NCBI RefSeq assembly: GCF_004368405.1
Contig: NZ_SBJH01000107.1
Location: 1 to 53,999 of the forward strand
Origin: Olivibacter sp. XZL3
GTDB taxonomy: Bacteria; Bacteroidota; Bacteroidia; Sphingobacteriales; Sphingobacteriaceae
Length of the DNA: 53,999 bases
Direction: 5' to 3'
Shown here one piece after another: positions 1,287 through 37,239 of this stretch. Made by a program: the position numbers and the translations under genes. The notes beneath the pieces were generated by a model. It was not told where the DNA came from, searched no databases, and saw only the letters and a program-made list of their open reading frames with translations. Within the stretch, counting starts at the first letter, position 1; the number at the start of each line of letters is the position of its first letter.

Positions 1287-3035
1287 TTAACGGAGATAAA
1301 TTTTTGCCAAATATTCCTGAAGGTCATTGTGCACTTCTTCAAATTTGGAGAATGATTTATCAAACATACCCGCTTTAAGTGGTAGCCAAGACTCTTTTTC
1401 CACCTTAGCTGAAGCTAGAAATTCACTGGTAAGCGTATTTCCATTTCTAAGGGGGCTTCTCCATTTAAACTCTCCATATGGAGCCGAATAAAATCCAAAT
1501 TTCTTGCCAATAAGATAAACGTGATTTAATGCAAGCAAATATTCAAATAGGTCGAACGCTTCAGTAAAATCCGCTGGAGAGTCAAAATATTCTGTAAATA
1601 AATCGGCGATACGCTGGTTGACATATGTACTAATAGGTGTAGAATGCCTCTCTCCAATAAATTCGTTAAACTTTCCTTGTGCGATTAGTGCGCTGTTCAC
1701 TTTTGAGATAAGATATTCCTTCGCCCGGTATCCATCGTAATCAAAGGCTATTTTTGTCCTAAATAATTTGTCGAGTAACGGATAATTTTCGGTTTTTAAT
1801 GCAATAATACCTACGCCATATAGCTGGAGTAATACCGGAAAATAGTACAGATTTCTGGTTTCGTCATAGGATGCAGATATCGGTCGAGGTCGACTTGTTC
1901 TGGTTATAAAATCAGTGATTAATTTATGATGTGTTGGTTTACTCCAATACGTACAGGTCATTAATAATGGCAGTGAATGCAGTGCTGCCGCTGTAAAATT
2001 TTGTAATACTGGGGCCAAATTATCTTTTGACGGATAAAGTGCAGGATCAAAGTGTTCGGCTATTAATTTTTCTAAACTCCTACTTTCGGCCGCCAAAAGA
2101 TCGGATAGTTGGATGAAATATTCAGCTTTAGAGAGGTATTTTTTTGCTCGCGCAGTAGCCATCTCAATGCTGATGACGTTGTTTTCTTCACTTCTTTCTA
2201 GTGCTTCCAGTTTTTCTACAAGTTCTTCAAAGAAGCTGTCGGCACTCCTTATTTTTAAAACGCGCCCTTTCCGAAAGGTCGCGACATCTTGTAGTTCCGA
2301 GCTTTTGTCGCTTATGTGTGTCCAAAAGCTGGAATACCGATAGTTGGCGCTTGCCCTCAACGTGTTTATTAATCCATTATCCCATTTTCCAGACCATCCG
2401 CAGGAAATAATGCCGAAATCATCTAATATGGTGATTATGTACTTCGAAAGGATATCATCGTAGCTTTCTAATTCGTCTTTGGTATTCAAAAATCTACTGT
2501 CCAGATAATCTCCATTGATTTTTATCAACGTAAAAGGGCTGTGTACCAGCGGCGCAGCTCCCGCTATATCGCTTGGATGCCTAATCACCACTGGCTCTAT
2601 TCCCTCATTTCTTAACGAAGTTTCTAATAATCTGTCAAAATTGGTGGTGATCACTACCTTTATATATCCTCTCTTAACTAGTTTGGCAATAGCATCATGG
2701 GCCTTTGTGGGACGCCTTAGTTGAGCTTCATCCTCTTCCTCTGTTGACTCAAAATAGGTGCGTAAGATGTTGAGCCTTTCTGTAGGAGTGGTCGCAAGTT
2801 TTTCCAGCAAATTCGAATAGTCCGGCTCTTCATTATATTTCTGCCTGTACCATTGATCGGGATGATCGCCGCAATCTTCCTTTTCTAAGTGAGCGATTTT
2901 CTTGATTAAATCGATCACAATGTCCCACCCTGTGGGTATTCCGGAATTTCTTGAGATTCCCGAACCCAATAGTAGGGCATATACTCCTTTGTTGGAGTAT
3001 ATTGAGAAGATAAGTAGATTGATGACGCTATCCAT
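1287..3035 (-). CDS. SIR2-family NAD-binding protein, putative antiphage NADase
   Basis: I chose the ATG at 3035, giving 582 residues, because the 19 codons upstream of it have no family-like sequence. The N-terminal ~290 residues show the SIR2 pattern: the nucleotide-binding loop LLLGSGISRNSGIPT (residues 21-35), VVITTNFDRLLE (128-138) with the conserved Asn, and IISCGWSGKWD near residue 215. The usual catalytic HG dipeptide is read here as NG (KINGDYLD, Asn174; the codon is AAT). The C-terminal ~290 residues are helical and carry no named domain. Standalone SIR2 proteins of this build are known in defence systems, where they deplete NAD during phage infection. No partner gene lies beside it. 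Whether it keeps NADase activity is uncertain. Confidence 0.75.
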   Translation of the reverse strand: MDSVINLLIFSIYSNKGVYALLLGSGISRNSGIPTGWDIVIDLIKKIAHLEKEDCGDHPDQWYRQKYNEEPDYSNLLEKLATTPTERLNILRTYFESTEEEDEAQLRRPTKAHDAIAKLVKRGYIKVVITTNFDRLLETSLRNEGIEPVVIRHPSDIAGAAPLVHSPFTLIKINGDYLDSRFLNTKDELESYDDILSKYIITILDDFGIISCGWSGKWDNGLINTLRASANYRYSSFWTHISDKSSELQDVATFRKGRVLKIRSADSFFEELVEKLEALERSEENNVISIEMATARAKKYLSKAEYFIQLSDLLAAESRSLEKLIAEHFDPALYPSKDNLAPVLQNFTAAALHSLPLLMTCTYWSKPTHHKLITDFITRTSRPRPISASYDETRNLYYFPVLLQLYGVGIIALKTENYPLLDKLFRTKIAFDYDGYRAKEYLISKVNSALIAQGKFNEFIGERHSTPISTYVNQRIADLFTEYFDSPADFTEAFDLFEYLLALNHVYLIGKKFGFYSAPYGEFKWRSPLRNGNTLTSEFLASAKVEKESWLPLKAGMFDKSFSKFEEVHNDLQEYLAKIYLR

Positions 3036-3431
3036 TGTTACTAAAATACGAAAATTGTAATAGCTAATGACGTTCAAACTCTTTTTCTCCAAAATAGGTT
3101 GACTTGTTTATACAATGGTATTATTAAAAGCTCGATGGTTAGTTTCAGCAAAAGCCCACAATATTGGTTCACAGGTCTTTTCGTTTTAACAATTTGTTAA
3201 AAGCTGCGTTGGTACTTAAGGAAGTTGACTTTGGCTACAATTATCTGATAATTGGTGGCATTAATATTTTCGCTGGATTCAACTTGTAGCATAAAAGAAT
3301 CCGTCGTTCTGTGGATTCATTGAATAGTAGTACTAGGATAATGTACAAGAATGCTATCGAGTATAGCGCGTTCATCTCAGATTCACTCAAATAGTAGTAT
3401 GGTTCAAGTGTTAGGCCAACAATTAAAGCTG

Positions 3432-32736: not shown

Positions 32737-33547
32737 ATGAACACAAGGCTATCGCACTTACCTGAACAAAAGCAACAAGAGATAGCTGAGATACTGGAAA
32801 TCATAAAGGAAGAAGTTAAGCCTGAGAAGGTCATACTTTTTGGTAGCCATGCGGGGAATAAGTGGGTAGAAGATGAGTATATAGAAGATGGTATTACGTT
32901 CAGCTATATCATTGATTATGATTTTCTTGTTGTGATCAAAAAGGGGGAAGGGCAGGAGAAAGAACATGCGATAATCAGTCATATTGAAAACCGAACCAAC
33001 CATATTAAAAATGCGGTAAGCCCTGTTGTTCATGATATTGATTACATCAACGAGGGCTTGCGCTTTGGGCATTAACCCCTGCAGAGGAGAAGCAGAAAGC
33101 CCAGGGATATTTTGATATTTGGTTTCCTCAAGGAAGTGAATTTCTCGACGGTGCTAGTTTCCACAAGTCGAAAGAGCATTTAAGAGTTGGCGCGTTTACG
33201 TTGCACCAAGCAGCCGAATGTTTCTATGACCGTTTTGTTAGTTTTTACGGGTTACAAACCTAAAACGCATAATCTTCAAAAATTAAGGAATTATGCCAAA
33301 CTTATTTCGATCGATCTGTATACCATTTTTCGTACACCACCTTCTGACGAAAGGGAGTTCATTTATTTGATTTGTTAAAACGGAGTTACATTGATGCTCG
33401 TTATAGTTAGATTACCATATTACTGCTGAAAAGTTACAAGCGCTTATTGATAAGGTAACTAGAATGCAGACTATTGTGGAGAGGATCTGTAAGGAGAAAA
33501 TTGATAGTTTTGAATTGGAGGAATTTAAGTCGTTTTTATGGAGTTAA
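32737..33547 (+). pseudogene. MNT-HEPN fusion (nucleotidyltransferase plus HEPN), multiply frameshifted
   Basis: The first frame (to 33075) is an MNT nucleotidyltransferase: LPEQKQQEIAEILEIIKEE, VILFGSHAGNKW and IIDYDFLVVIKK with the acidic pair. It then breaks. HEPN-domain pieces follow in other frames: AEEKQKAQGYFDIWFPQGSE, AFTLHQAAECFYDRF, VFTGYKPKTHNLQKLRNYA, DLLKRSYIDARYS, then IVERICKEKIDSFELEEFK, ending at 33547. Such fusions are the single-chain form of MNT/HEPN toxin-antitoxin modules. Several indels and a missing stretch between the domains make it inactive. Its last codons overlap the start of the following nuclease gene by 10 bases. Confidence 0.8.
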
Positions 33548-34548
33548 CTAGCCAACAGGAATATAGAAATCTTGTACAGCAGATATCCGTTAGATACGAA
33601 GAGGGGCGAAAGCAAGCCGCTCAGTTTGTAAATACGCGGTTATTAGAGGCTTATTGGGAGGTTGGTCGTTATATTATAGAATTTGAACAGGAAGGAGCAA
33701 ACCGAGCAAAGTATGGTAAAGCATTATTAGAGCACTTGGCTTCTGATCTAACGTTACGCCATGGCAAGGGGTTTAGTAGATCGAACCTGAATTACATGAG
33801 GCTGGTTTATCGTTATTATCCAATTTGTGAGGAACTTCCTCACAAATTGAGTTGGACTCATTTATGTGAGTTAGTCAAGATAGATGATCCCTTAGAACGT
33901 TCTTTTTATGAAAAGCAAGCTATTCTCGAAAATTGGAGTACTACTGAACTAAAACGTCAAAAGAAATCTTCTCTCTTTCTCCATTTAGCTGCATCGAAGG
34001 ACAAGCAAGGGATTTTGCAATTAGCCAAGCAAGGCCAATCCATAACCAAACCCGACGATATTATCCGAGATCCTTATGTGCTGGATTTTCTAAAAATACC
34101 GGAGCCTCATCATTATACAGAGTCCGAATTAGAGAACCGGATCATTGAACATCTACAGCATTTCTTATTGGAATTAGGAAAAGGCTTTGCTTTTATCGGC
34201 AGACAATATCGTATTACTTTGGGAAACCGACACCATTATGTCGACTTGGTATTCTATCACCGTATCCTGAAATGTTTCGTGCTGATCGACTTGAAAAGGG
34301 AAGAAGCCGGATATGAAGACGTTGGTCAAATGAATATGTACTTGGGTTATTTTGAAAATGAAGAGAATACTACAGGGGATAATCCGCCGATAGGTATCGT
34401 ATTGGCAAGAGAAAAAGACGATTTGTTAATTCAATATGCTATGCATAACGTTTCATCTCAATTGTTTGTGAGCAAATATCAATTATACTTACCCAATAAG
34501 GAAGAGCTACGTGCTGTTATAGAAGAGACTTTAAGGGAAGAAGAATAG
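33538..34548 (+). CDS. YhcG/DUF1016 family PDDEXK nuclease
   Basis: The 336-residue protein has the two-part DUF1016 layout. The N-terminal helical domain (residues 1-150) contains RLLEAYWEVGRYIIEFEQEG and GKGFSRSNLNYMRLVYRYYP. The C-terminal PD-(D/E)xK domain has ELENRIIEHLQHFLLELGKG, a YRITLGNRHHYVDLVFYH strand with the Asp, and FVLIDLKREE with the Lys. Family members are predicted nucleases linked to mobile elements and defence islands. The gene is intact and its start overlaps the end of the broken MNT-HEPN gene. Its natural target is not known. Confidence 0.88.
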   Translation: MELTSQQEYRNLVQQISVRYEEGRKQAAQFVNTRLLEAYWEVGRYIIEFEQEGANRAKYGKALLEHLASDLTLRHGKGFSRSNLNYMRLVYRYYPICEELPHKLSWTHLCELVKIDDPLERSFYEKQAILENWSTTELKRQKKSSLFLHLAASKDKQGILQLAKQGQSITKPDDIIRDPYVLDFLKIPEPHHYTESELENRIIEHLQHFLLELGKGFAFIGRQYRITLGNRHHYVDLVFYHRILKCFVLIDLKREEAGYEDVGQMNMYLGYFENEENTTGDNPPIGIVLAREKDDLLIQYAMHNVSSQLFVSKYQLYLPNKEELRAVIEETLREEE

Positions 34549-35649: not shown

Positions 35650-36256
35650 CAGTCAATGCTTCGGTTAAGTAAAACAACTATTTCTTAGTGTAAAACTACT
35701 AAAAATTATAGCAAAGGTGAAATAATTTGCAGAAATTCGTGGTTATTACTGATAAACAATGTCAATTAACATTGAATGAATAAAAAGTTTACTTGATTTA
35801 GTAAATTTGCAGAATTTCTGAGAATTTGGAGTTCTGCTTCGAGTCTTGTTCTGGAAACTAGCACTTTCAAAGGTCACAAGATGAGGGGTGAGAAACCCAT
35901 GTTATAAGCATGGGGTTCCCTTCTTATGCGTGACCAGGGTGTGCTAGCCCTCCAGAACCATAGGTTGGGGCCCTGTGCTGATAGCATTAAGCATTAACTT
36001 CTTCCGAAAGACTCGTTAAATAAATAGCGAGCAAATGAACAACCAAACCAAAAACCAAAAGCTTAACCCTGTCTCTTTGTTAAGAGAACCAGCTTGCGAT
36101 GCACTTATTTATAAGTGTAGTGTTTCCAAAAAGCAGTTATTTAAGGTTCTGATTTGTGCGCCCGAATAAGGGTTGTTGAGATTTCTCCATTCCACTGCGT
36201 TCCAGTCGAAATGACGGCGTAGTAATTCCAATTTATTTCTCAACCAAATCTATAAA
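35650..36256. other. Intergenic region with structured element and a short frame
   Basis: Apart from the rod-like structure at 35848-35958, this contains only a 44-codon frame (36035-36169, starting MNNQTKNQKLNPVSLLRE) with no known family. No reverse transcriptase or other retron component is present. Confidence 0.4.
35848..35958 (+). ncRNA. Rod-like hairpin of about 111 bases, candidate structured RNA
   Basis: Four nested helices pair in order. GTTCTGGA (35848-35855) pairs with TCCAGAAC (35951-35958). CTAGCAC (35858-35864) pairs with GTGCTAG (35941-35947). GGTCAC (35872-35877) pairs with GTGACC (35930-35935). GAAACCCATG (35892-35901) pairs with CATGGGGTTC (35909-35918). All are perfect except the last, and small internal loops separate them. 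The terminal loop is seven bases (TTATAAG). The length and rod shape recall regulatory RNAs such as 6S RNA or a retron msd, but neither is supported here. The strand is uncertain because the structure is symmetrical. Confidence 0.55.
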
Positions 36257-36414
36257 ATGAACGATCAATACGTAAGGGGAGAGGTACGGCCTGACGGCTT
36301 GCCGTCAGAAATCAGCTACCGGCTATCAGCTTACTCCCGTCATCATCATAAAAAACAATTAAAAAACGCTTTTTCAAAGCCTTCCCGGCGGCAGAAAAAT
36401 CAACAAGATCAGGC

Positions 36415-36663
36415 TTGGCTACCTTCGGCAAGTATTCCACTATTGTATGGCAATGGTTCGCTATTTCTTCGGGAACTGTTCGAGACTTGTTCGGGTCGGC
36501 TTCGACAACGCTTCGGGTCGGCTTCGACTCGTTCCCGAAGACTTCCCGAAGCGCACCCGAAGAACAGTCGAAGAAATGTCGAAGAAAGTTATACGCAAAT
36601 GCAGCTAATTCCGGAAAAACCGGCGAAGCTTGGTGGAAGGTTTCCCGAAGACCTGTCAACTAA
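36415..36663. repeat. Irregular TTCGGG/CCCGAA-rich repeat region
   Basis: Short motifs such as GTCGGCTTCGAC, TTCGGGAAC and CCCGAAGAC recur in both orientations, so all frames on both strands stay open. In one frame they give LRxxFG-type peptide repeats. I treat this as low-complexity DNA rather than a gene. Confidence 0.5.
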
Positions 36664-36794
36664 AAGCAGCAAAAATATTCCGCACAGTAAATCGACTTTA
36701 ATGCTTTTTACTTTTCCTTGCTGCACTTAAAACGTACTACTTATAACTTACAACTCAAAAGGGCTTTCGCTCTTCCTCTATTTTTATTCAAATG

Positions 36795-37239
36795 CAAAAA
36801 GCTTAGTTTTATATTCCTGGAACTCCCTAATTTTGTAAAGCCGGACGAGGAGATCAGGACGGATATGGATCGTCGGTTCTGGATATTGAAGAACCTAAGT
36901 AAGGCGGACAAGATATCGGCGTTTATGAACAAACGGATTTTCCAGCGGATCTTTAAGATAGCCGAAGTATCGAATCTAAGCAAGGAGGAATTTATGGCTT
37001 ACGAAGCAAGTTTACAGGATAAATGGATATGGGACAGTGCCATGTCTATGGCAGAGAAAAAGGCTGCTGAAAAAGCAGCAAAGGATGTCACTGAAAAAGA
37101 GCGTGCCAAGGCAGAACAGGAGAAATACAATATGCAGTTAACATCTGCCCGTTCCTTAAAAGGGATCGGTGTATTGACAAATGAGCAGATTGCCAAAAGT
37201 TTGAAACTCCCATTGGAAGTAGTAAAAAAATTGAAATAA
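36795..37239 (+). pseudogene. C-terminal part of an Rpn-family recombination-promoting nuclease
   Basis: From about 36795 the frame reads KLSFIFLELPNFVKPDEEIR, then FWILKNLSKADKISAFMNKR, and a coiled Lys/Ala/Glu-rich tail (EKKAAEKAAKDVTEKERAK) ending in a small HTH-like helix (LKGIGVLTNEQIAKSLKLPL). This is the C-terminal half of Rpn/PD-(D/E)xK transposase-like proteins common in Bacteroidota. The catalytic N-terminal ~170 residues are missing and the sequence to the left is unrelated repeat DNA. It is a truncated mobile-element relic. Confidence 0.8.

Follow-up and report, generated by a model that had tools for sequence, protein, structure and literature searches.

In a 53,999-nt stretch of an Olivibacter sp. 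XZL3 contig, here called the window and used for all hairpin and leader coordinates, an earlier note had singled out a 111-base rod-like hairpin as an unexplained RNA. We report that this rod is part of a leader RNA of about 199 nt, which ends at the AUG of a short open reading frame (ORF) and belongs to a structured RNA family linked to SusC/SusD operons. Bacteroidota import nutrients across the outer membrane mainly through SusC/SusD systems. The peptide encoded by the short ORF is under selection, and the RNA in front of it covaries and is probably bistable. With moderate confidence, we favour a model in which a cis-acting bistable leader RNA would gate a stall-prone leader peptide ahead of the operon.

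The leader RNA family and its operons

The long hairpin of stacked helices with small loops is real, as is its place in the gap adjoining an XRE regulator gene. Its minimum free energy (MFE) was -53.6 kcal/mol against a mean of -29.87 for shuffled sequences (sd 3.38, z -7.02), and 0 of 200 shuffles were as low. The outer arm is an 8-bp helix, GTTCTGGA/TCCAGAAC, inside which the inner helices stack. When both strands of the window were scanned with 111-nt segments in 10-nt steps, 1 of 10,778 segments reached -53.6 kcal/mol or lower (31289, minus strand, -55.2 kcal/mol), the strongest fold of the scan, lying within a coding region; the rod neighbourhood (grid segment 35881, -49.9) was the second strongest separate place.

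The hairpin was also said to fit no known RNA class, and this was borne out. Rfam 15 gave no match to the leader RNA in the window or the scanned loci: over the whole window its sole match was a tRNA, at the gathering threshold 20 loci gave none, and at E ≤ 1 eight loci gave one sub-threshold match, located away from the RNA. The comparison with 6S RNA that had been proposed was negative as well, as cmscan returned no 6S-flavo match to the window or scanned loci. A retron RNA would call for an adjacent reverse transcriptase, and none was present among the six neighbouring proteins scanned by Pfam (30.8-37.2 kb, other ORFs not scanned), in line with the earlier note.

BLASTN with the rod itself found no relative in its own genome, 100 relatives, plasmids or phages. 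A weak short match (L004) was rejected as it falls in an unrelated coding stretch; a pattern search of 399 family genomes added one match (L009), at a place without the layout, and viral contigs gave none. The sequence that does recur is a 33-nt block downstream of the rod (36026-36058), found by BLASTN at 97% identity in the same-genus genome of Olivibacter sitiensis DSM 17696 (L003). The layout there is that of the window, with a divergent helix-turn-helix (HTH) gene, an unrelated-looking rod and then the block. This block opens a short ORF, whose peptide has 44 aa in the window, 18 aa in Olivibacter sitiensis and matching ends in both (KKQLFKVLICAPE and KKQFLRNLISAPE, respectively).

We built a covariance model, R1, from 29 leaders, leaving out the window, L081, L003 and L053. 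R1 recovered the window copy at full length (Table 1), which places it in the family, and over 26 sources it matched the window, L003, L081, L053 and L070. At E ≤ 0.01, it matched none of the 5 sources that lack the short ORF, and a sequence-only model of the same alignment found nothing at E ≤ 10. In the whole genome of the window, R1 matched five places at E ≤ 1: C97 (125.6 bits), C91 (114.3), C82 (45.4), the window (37.1, E 2.7e-4) and a 96-nt form on C110 (28.4 bits, E 0.017). Such short forms of about 92-96 nt (L108 270-365 on C110; L063 9940-10031, minus strand) keep both R1 ends and lack most of the rod.

The covariance search proposed in the earlier note found homologues in 132 of 301 genomes of the family, covering 12 of 25 genera at E ≤ 1e-3 with up to 6 copies per genome. 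Among 198 genomes sampled from the class, it gave 3 hits, all within the same family; both searches were run with stricter filters. Wherever a match spans positions 1-222, its final positions are the start codon of the short ORF. A structured RNA family therefore exists, and the earlier interpretation has to be divided: the RNA-level structure stands, whereas the free-standing 111-base RNA does not, because its boundaries enclosed only the rod of a larger cis-leader.

Among the 40 copies with long context (two of them in L063), a SusC-sized ORF lies downstream in 39 and a SusD-sized ORF also in 39, the exception being L072. An ORF with a thioredoxin-type motif is found downstream in 32 of the 40, and a minus-strand ORF upstream in 39. 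In the window's own genome, Pfam identified thioredoxin-like, TonB plug and SusD proteins at L081 and L110, together with MauE at L081, and the other three full-length leader copies have SusC- and SusD-sized genes alongside. The RNA family is linked to SusC/SusD operons. At L110 (from 4419), L028 (from 5068) and the window (from 36257), the first operon gene, encoding SusC or the thioredoxin-like protein, has a long extension before the apparent signal peptide.

The leader peptide

Searched with the 18-aa peptide, 7 of 100 relatives gave a match at E ≤ 1, some of these being chance matches. An eight-peptide profile found 157 of the 301 family genomes at E ≤ 0.5, of which many are probably chance matches too. 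From the fetched loci, we retained 50 short ORFs by the pattern N-[LIV]-I-[SCTA]-A-P-[EVKD]. L055, L057 and L058 were judged chance matches, and L059 and L060 were excluded for not fitting the pattern, although each has the rod and a peptide with the end LIKSPV.

Since the pattern itself fixes these residues, their identity across the 50 ORFs proves nothing; the informative tests are the free third codon positions and the peptides behind leaders selected by R1. Third codon positions vary freely among the 50 ORFs while the first two are held: alanine is encoded by GCC (27), GCT (13), GCA (5) and GCG (5), and proline by CCC (33), CCT (8), CCG (6) and CCA (3). The stop codon is TAG in 35 of 50. 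Behind R1-selected leaders, 33 of 34 short ORFs have proline second to last, the conserved C-terminus with proline close to the stop that marks arrest peptides, and so do 23 of 24 among the R1 leaders not collected via the peptide, including the window, whose peptide ends ...ICAPE. These ends include APE, PPD, NPE, NPV, KPE and IPP. Behind leaders known through R1 alone (L102, L135, L139, L141 and others), the peptides end KNPE, KNPV, RNPE or similar; as these lack the APE end, the general feature is confined to proline plus one residue. The peptide is under selection, and the conserved penultimate proline suggests that ribosomes pause near the stop codon.

Two folds and competing explanations

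The aligned leaders share a 5' GAGTCT, long complementary arms and a 3' AGACTC, followed by a small hairpin and ATG. Alignment A3 holds 33 of 51 candidates (the 50 short ORFs plus the window). The other 18, in which no 5' GAGTCT layout was recognised, were left out (L020, L021, L022, L025, L026, L027, L038, the L040 copy at 1518, L041, L043, L044, L045, L054, L070, L071, L073, L074 and L093).

Two folds can be drawn on this alignment. Fold 1 joins strand a1 to a5 and contains the rod, in which A pairs with B; fold 2 consists of B:C, helix Z and the start-codon hairpin. Because B pairs with either A or C, and a5 either with a1 or within the start-codon hairpin, the folds are mutually exclusive. 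In fold 1, 83.7% of cells were paired (73.0% shuffled, 35.7-43.5% when slid), with 173 double changes against 69.4; in fold 2, 77.9% were paired (68.4% shuffled, 33.9-45.8% slid), with 103 double changes against 47.4. RNAalifold predicted 23 pairs, of which 16 show compensatory changes; they lie in a1:a5 and in the rod helices X and Y. The earlier note would have been refuted by homologues lacking compensatory changes, and they do show them. Both folds covary, so that the two exclusive covarying folds of a riboswitch are found here, subject to the caveats on fold 2 and on the single member given below.

Between the two start-codon states, the median energy difference is 2.3 kcal/mol, and in 25 of 33 leaders the difference is 5 or less. 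Among the full-length MFE folds of the 33 leaders, 19 contain a1:a5 and 13 the start-codon hairpin; after truncation of the 5' half, 28 of 33 form this hairpin. The window copy behaves similarly, as its MFE contains a1:a5, and once its 5' half is removed it folds into a start-codon hairpin of 6 pairs and into 10 pairs of B:C.

In the model we favour, the divergent HTH regulator gene adjoins a promoter, P1, from which transcription would start and run through the leader straight into the short ORF. In fold 1, pairing of a1 with a5 and of A with B in the rod would keep the small start-codon hairpin from forming; in fold 2, B would pair with the downstream C, leaving a1 free and a5 in the hairpin against the start codon. 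Switching between the folds would raise or lower translation of the leader peptide, and a ribosome pause near its stop would gate, through attenuation or coupling, the operon for SusC, SusD and, as a rule, a thioredoxin-like protein. The parts of this model that we infer are the switching in cells, the stalling, the signal and HTH control of P1.

Several observations weigh against this model. The covariation and energy counts rest on 33 of 51 candidates, and the folds were drawn from one member (L048), so that the slid controls favour them. Fold 2 has 18 pairs with a double change against 15.6 in shuffles, 63 of 500 of which reach 18, and both A:B and B:C are absent from RNAalifold's own prediction. 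Once the 5' half is cut off, 16 of 33 leaders form B:C, counted as at least 8 pairs by alignment columns. As predicted for plus-strand RNA, there are more G-U than A-C cells (117:51 in fold 1, 77:39 in fold 2), but distinct position types stand at only 36:24 and 29:20, and the start-codon hairpin alone is reversed (A-C 11, G-U 6 cells). Furthermore, L044 has the peptide and no evident rod, and R1 matches 1 of 17 tested dropped short-ORF loci at E ≤ 0.01.

We regard it as rather unlikely that the leader is a constitutive structured 5' untranslated region, with a rod that just shields the mRNA or serves as an RNase III cleavage site and a short ORF that feeds translation of the next gene, without any switch. 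The rod does dominate the folding energy, and in 14 of 33 leaders keeping it required no alternative of at least 4 hairpin or at least 5 a1:a5 pairs; against this, covariation reaches B:C and the start-codon hairpin, and the two states are near equal in energy in 25 of 33. A transcription attenuator, in which translation of the leader peptide would decide whether transcription stops at an intrinsic terminator ahead of the operon or reads through, is less probable. Terminator-like hairpins do lie between the short ORF and the next gene in L003, L026, L027, L041 and L081, with G/C-rich stems (GGGGCCCC- or GGGCGCCC-rich) and then T runs. However, 13 of 49 loci reach -6 kcal/mol before the operon while 7 of 49 shuffled spacers do so too, so a terminator is not general, and none is reported for the window.

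The remaining explanations seem highly improbable to us. A free trans-acting small RNA, as the earlier note supposed, would suit the compact and very stable rod; yet the full-length R1 matches finish on the start codon and the copies head operons. Equally improbable is a DNA-level element, be it an operator, a cruciform or a transposon end. In its favour, a few loci (5 of 37 at p ≤ 0.05) have long palindromes over P1, and the window copy has a REP-like repeat and an Rpn-type fragment nearby; the G-U excess among cells, the lack of a second rod copy in own-genome BLASTN and the conservation of structure without sequence in relatives speak against it. We also give little credence to a signalling role, in which the divergent HTH protein would sense the peptide of the short ORF and the RNA would do no more than time its synthesis. 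An HTH-like gene does adjoin the peptide gene divergently, but the C-terminus is kept while the upstream proteins diverge greatly (mean column identity 13%).

The window copy, its promoter and comparable systems

The strands of the window copy were located by reading its sequence against the family (Table 1). This copy retains the regulator, leader and peptide gene and has lost the operon. With tblastn, the TlpA, SusC and SusD of L081 gave at best E 1.1 against the window, so no SusC/SusD operon was found there and we call this copy an orphan. The ORF following the peptide gene has its best BLASTP match in the N-terminal part of the first gene of L092, across a repetitive stretch, and by eye its first residues resemble the SusC gene of L110.

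Table 1 Leader element, promoter and neighbouring genes of the window copy.
Feature	Position	Strand	Basis or remark
XRE (Cro/C1-type) HTH regulator gene, divergent, 138 aa	35233..35649	-	PF01381, E 6.3e-10
18-bp inverted repeat, possible operator, upstream of P1	35757..35774	.	p 0.067 against shuffles
P1, -7-type box TAAATTTG	35802..35809	+	box search
Whole leader RNA	35839..36037	+	R1 positions 1-222 of 222, 37.1 bits, E 1.1e-5; ends at short-ORF start codon
Strand a1, GAGTCTT	35841..35847	+	pairs with a5 in MFE, 7 bp
Rod hairpin, as first reported	35848..35958	+	shuffle-tested fold
Strand A, CCCATG	35896..35901	+	partner of B in fold 1; placed by sequence reading
Strand B, GCATGGGGTTCCC	35908..35920	+	common to both folds; placed by sequence reading
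Strand C, CCCTGTGC	35971..35978	+	can pair with B in fold 2
Strand a5, AAGACTC	36008..36014	+	partner of a1
Alternative hairpin CTCG...CGAG, adjoining start codon	36012..36031	+	folding
Start codon of short ORF	36035-36037	+	sequence read against family
Short ORF, 44 aa, end KKQLFKVLICAPE-stop	36035..36169	+	aligned with 18-aa Olivibacter sitiensis peptide
Putative truncated start of former first operon gene, 157-aa ORF	36257..36730	+	BLASTP E 2.0e-6
PDDEXK_2 (Rpn-type) C-terminal fragment, at expected operon body	36718..37239	+	PF12784, E 1.1e-11, profile positions 143-225 only

For the promoter, TAnnTTTG boxes occur at -310 to -250 in 33 loci, with TTTG 18-22 nt upstream in 17 of them; shifted controls gave 3-18%, except for one shift that meets the box itself. 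P1 of the window has no TTTG at the -33 spacing. A TAnnTTTG box also occurs in the apical loop of 33 related leaders (about -165 to -130 from the ATG, for example in L048 and L061), and the window copy is without it; a second promoter at this rod apex was rejected, as TTTG at the -33 spacing occurs in 0 of 33. At p 0.067, the inverted repeat upstream of P1 is not significant by itself. Palindromes over P1 are striking in L003, L027, L042 and L052, and we rejected them as a general feature because only 5 of 37 loci reach p ≤ 0.05, so that control of P1 by the HTH protein is presumed. Of 38 upstream minus-strand proteins, a set that includes the one of the window, 17 carry HTH_3 at E ≤ 0.05, which makes a divergent HTH gene common without extending it to all. 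Relatives of the XRE protein offered no route to the RNA, since they lie beside other genes with no R1 match (L016, L017, L018). The closest of them, L016 and L017, share on the divergent side a hairpin of their own (CTGTATGACAGTT ... CCGGCGG), which R1 does not match.

The REP-like repeat, GAGATTTCTC...GAAATGACG, follows the short ORF in the window (about 36185-36226) and in L003 (about 1604-1642), with 80% identity over 41 nt. The window also encodes a SIR2-like protein (1287-3092, minus strand) and a YhcG/DUF1016 nuclease-like protein (33538-34548, plus strand), kinds that are met in defence loci.

As a kind, a cis-leader with a leader peptide is already known. Downstream-peptide RNA is linked to glutamine sensing. 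Our leader resembles this family (RF01704) in being a structured RNA directly before a short ORF, and differs in that RF01704 is cyanobacterial or marine (PMC2864571) and gave no cmscan match here. Pedo-repair (RF01715), Bacteroid-trp (RF01692) and 6S-flavo (RF01685) are structured RNAs of Pedobacter or Bacteroidetes (PMC2864571). With cmscan, none of these four families matched the window or the scanned loci.

For the peptide, a comparable case is CruR, an upstream ORF (uORF) of the Bordetella pertussis bfrG operon whose C-terminal proline motif arrests translation and sets the fate of the downstream genes (PMC9426467). CruR belongs to the DUF2946 proteins, has a CXXC copper sensor and a RAPP motif, acts through Rho, and likewise is a small ORF heading an operon with a TonB-dependent transporter gene (PMC9426467). 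Unlike CruR, our peptides are short, have a P-[EDVP]-stop end and follow a covarying RNA of about 200 nt. In Bacteroidota, NSP-stop and NAP-stop uORFs with proline last lie upstream of secA/secDF (PMC10987492); the peptides here differ in preceding SusC/SusD operons and in having one more residue after the proline. These systems indicate that such peptides can gate genes (PMC9426467, PMC10987492).

In searches of open-licence literature, we recognised no earlier description of the leader RNA, its peptide, the SusC/SusD link or the proposed double gate, and the family looks like an undescribed RNA switch. More tentatively, it is possible that the leaders are a novel type of RNA switch that senses a ligand or a protein and acts via a leader peptide, which would give each SusC/SusD operon in Sphingobacteriaceae a two-layer sensor, with several differently tuned copies in a genome. 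If this is true, an RNA fold first and then a nascent-chain pause would provide sensing for every SusC/SusD uptake operon in Sphingobacteriaceae. The candidate RNA family offered here makes post-transcriptional control of SusC/SusD operons directly testable, and an isolated unexplained hairpin may be resolved through the tiny ORF next to it.
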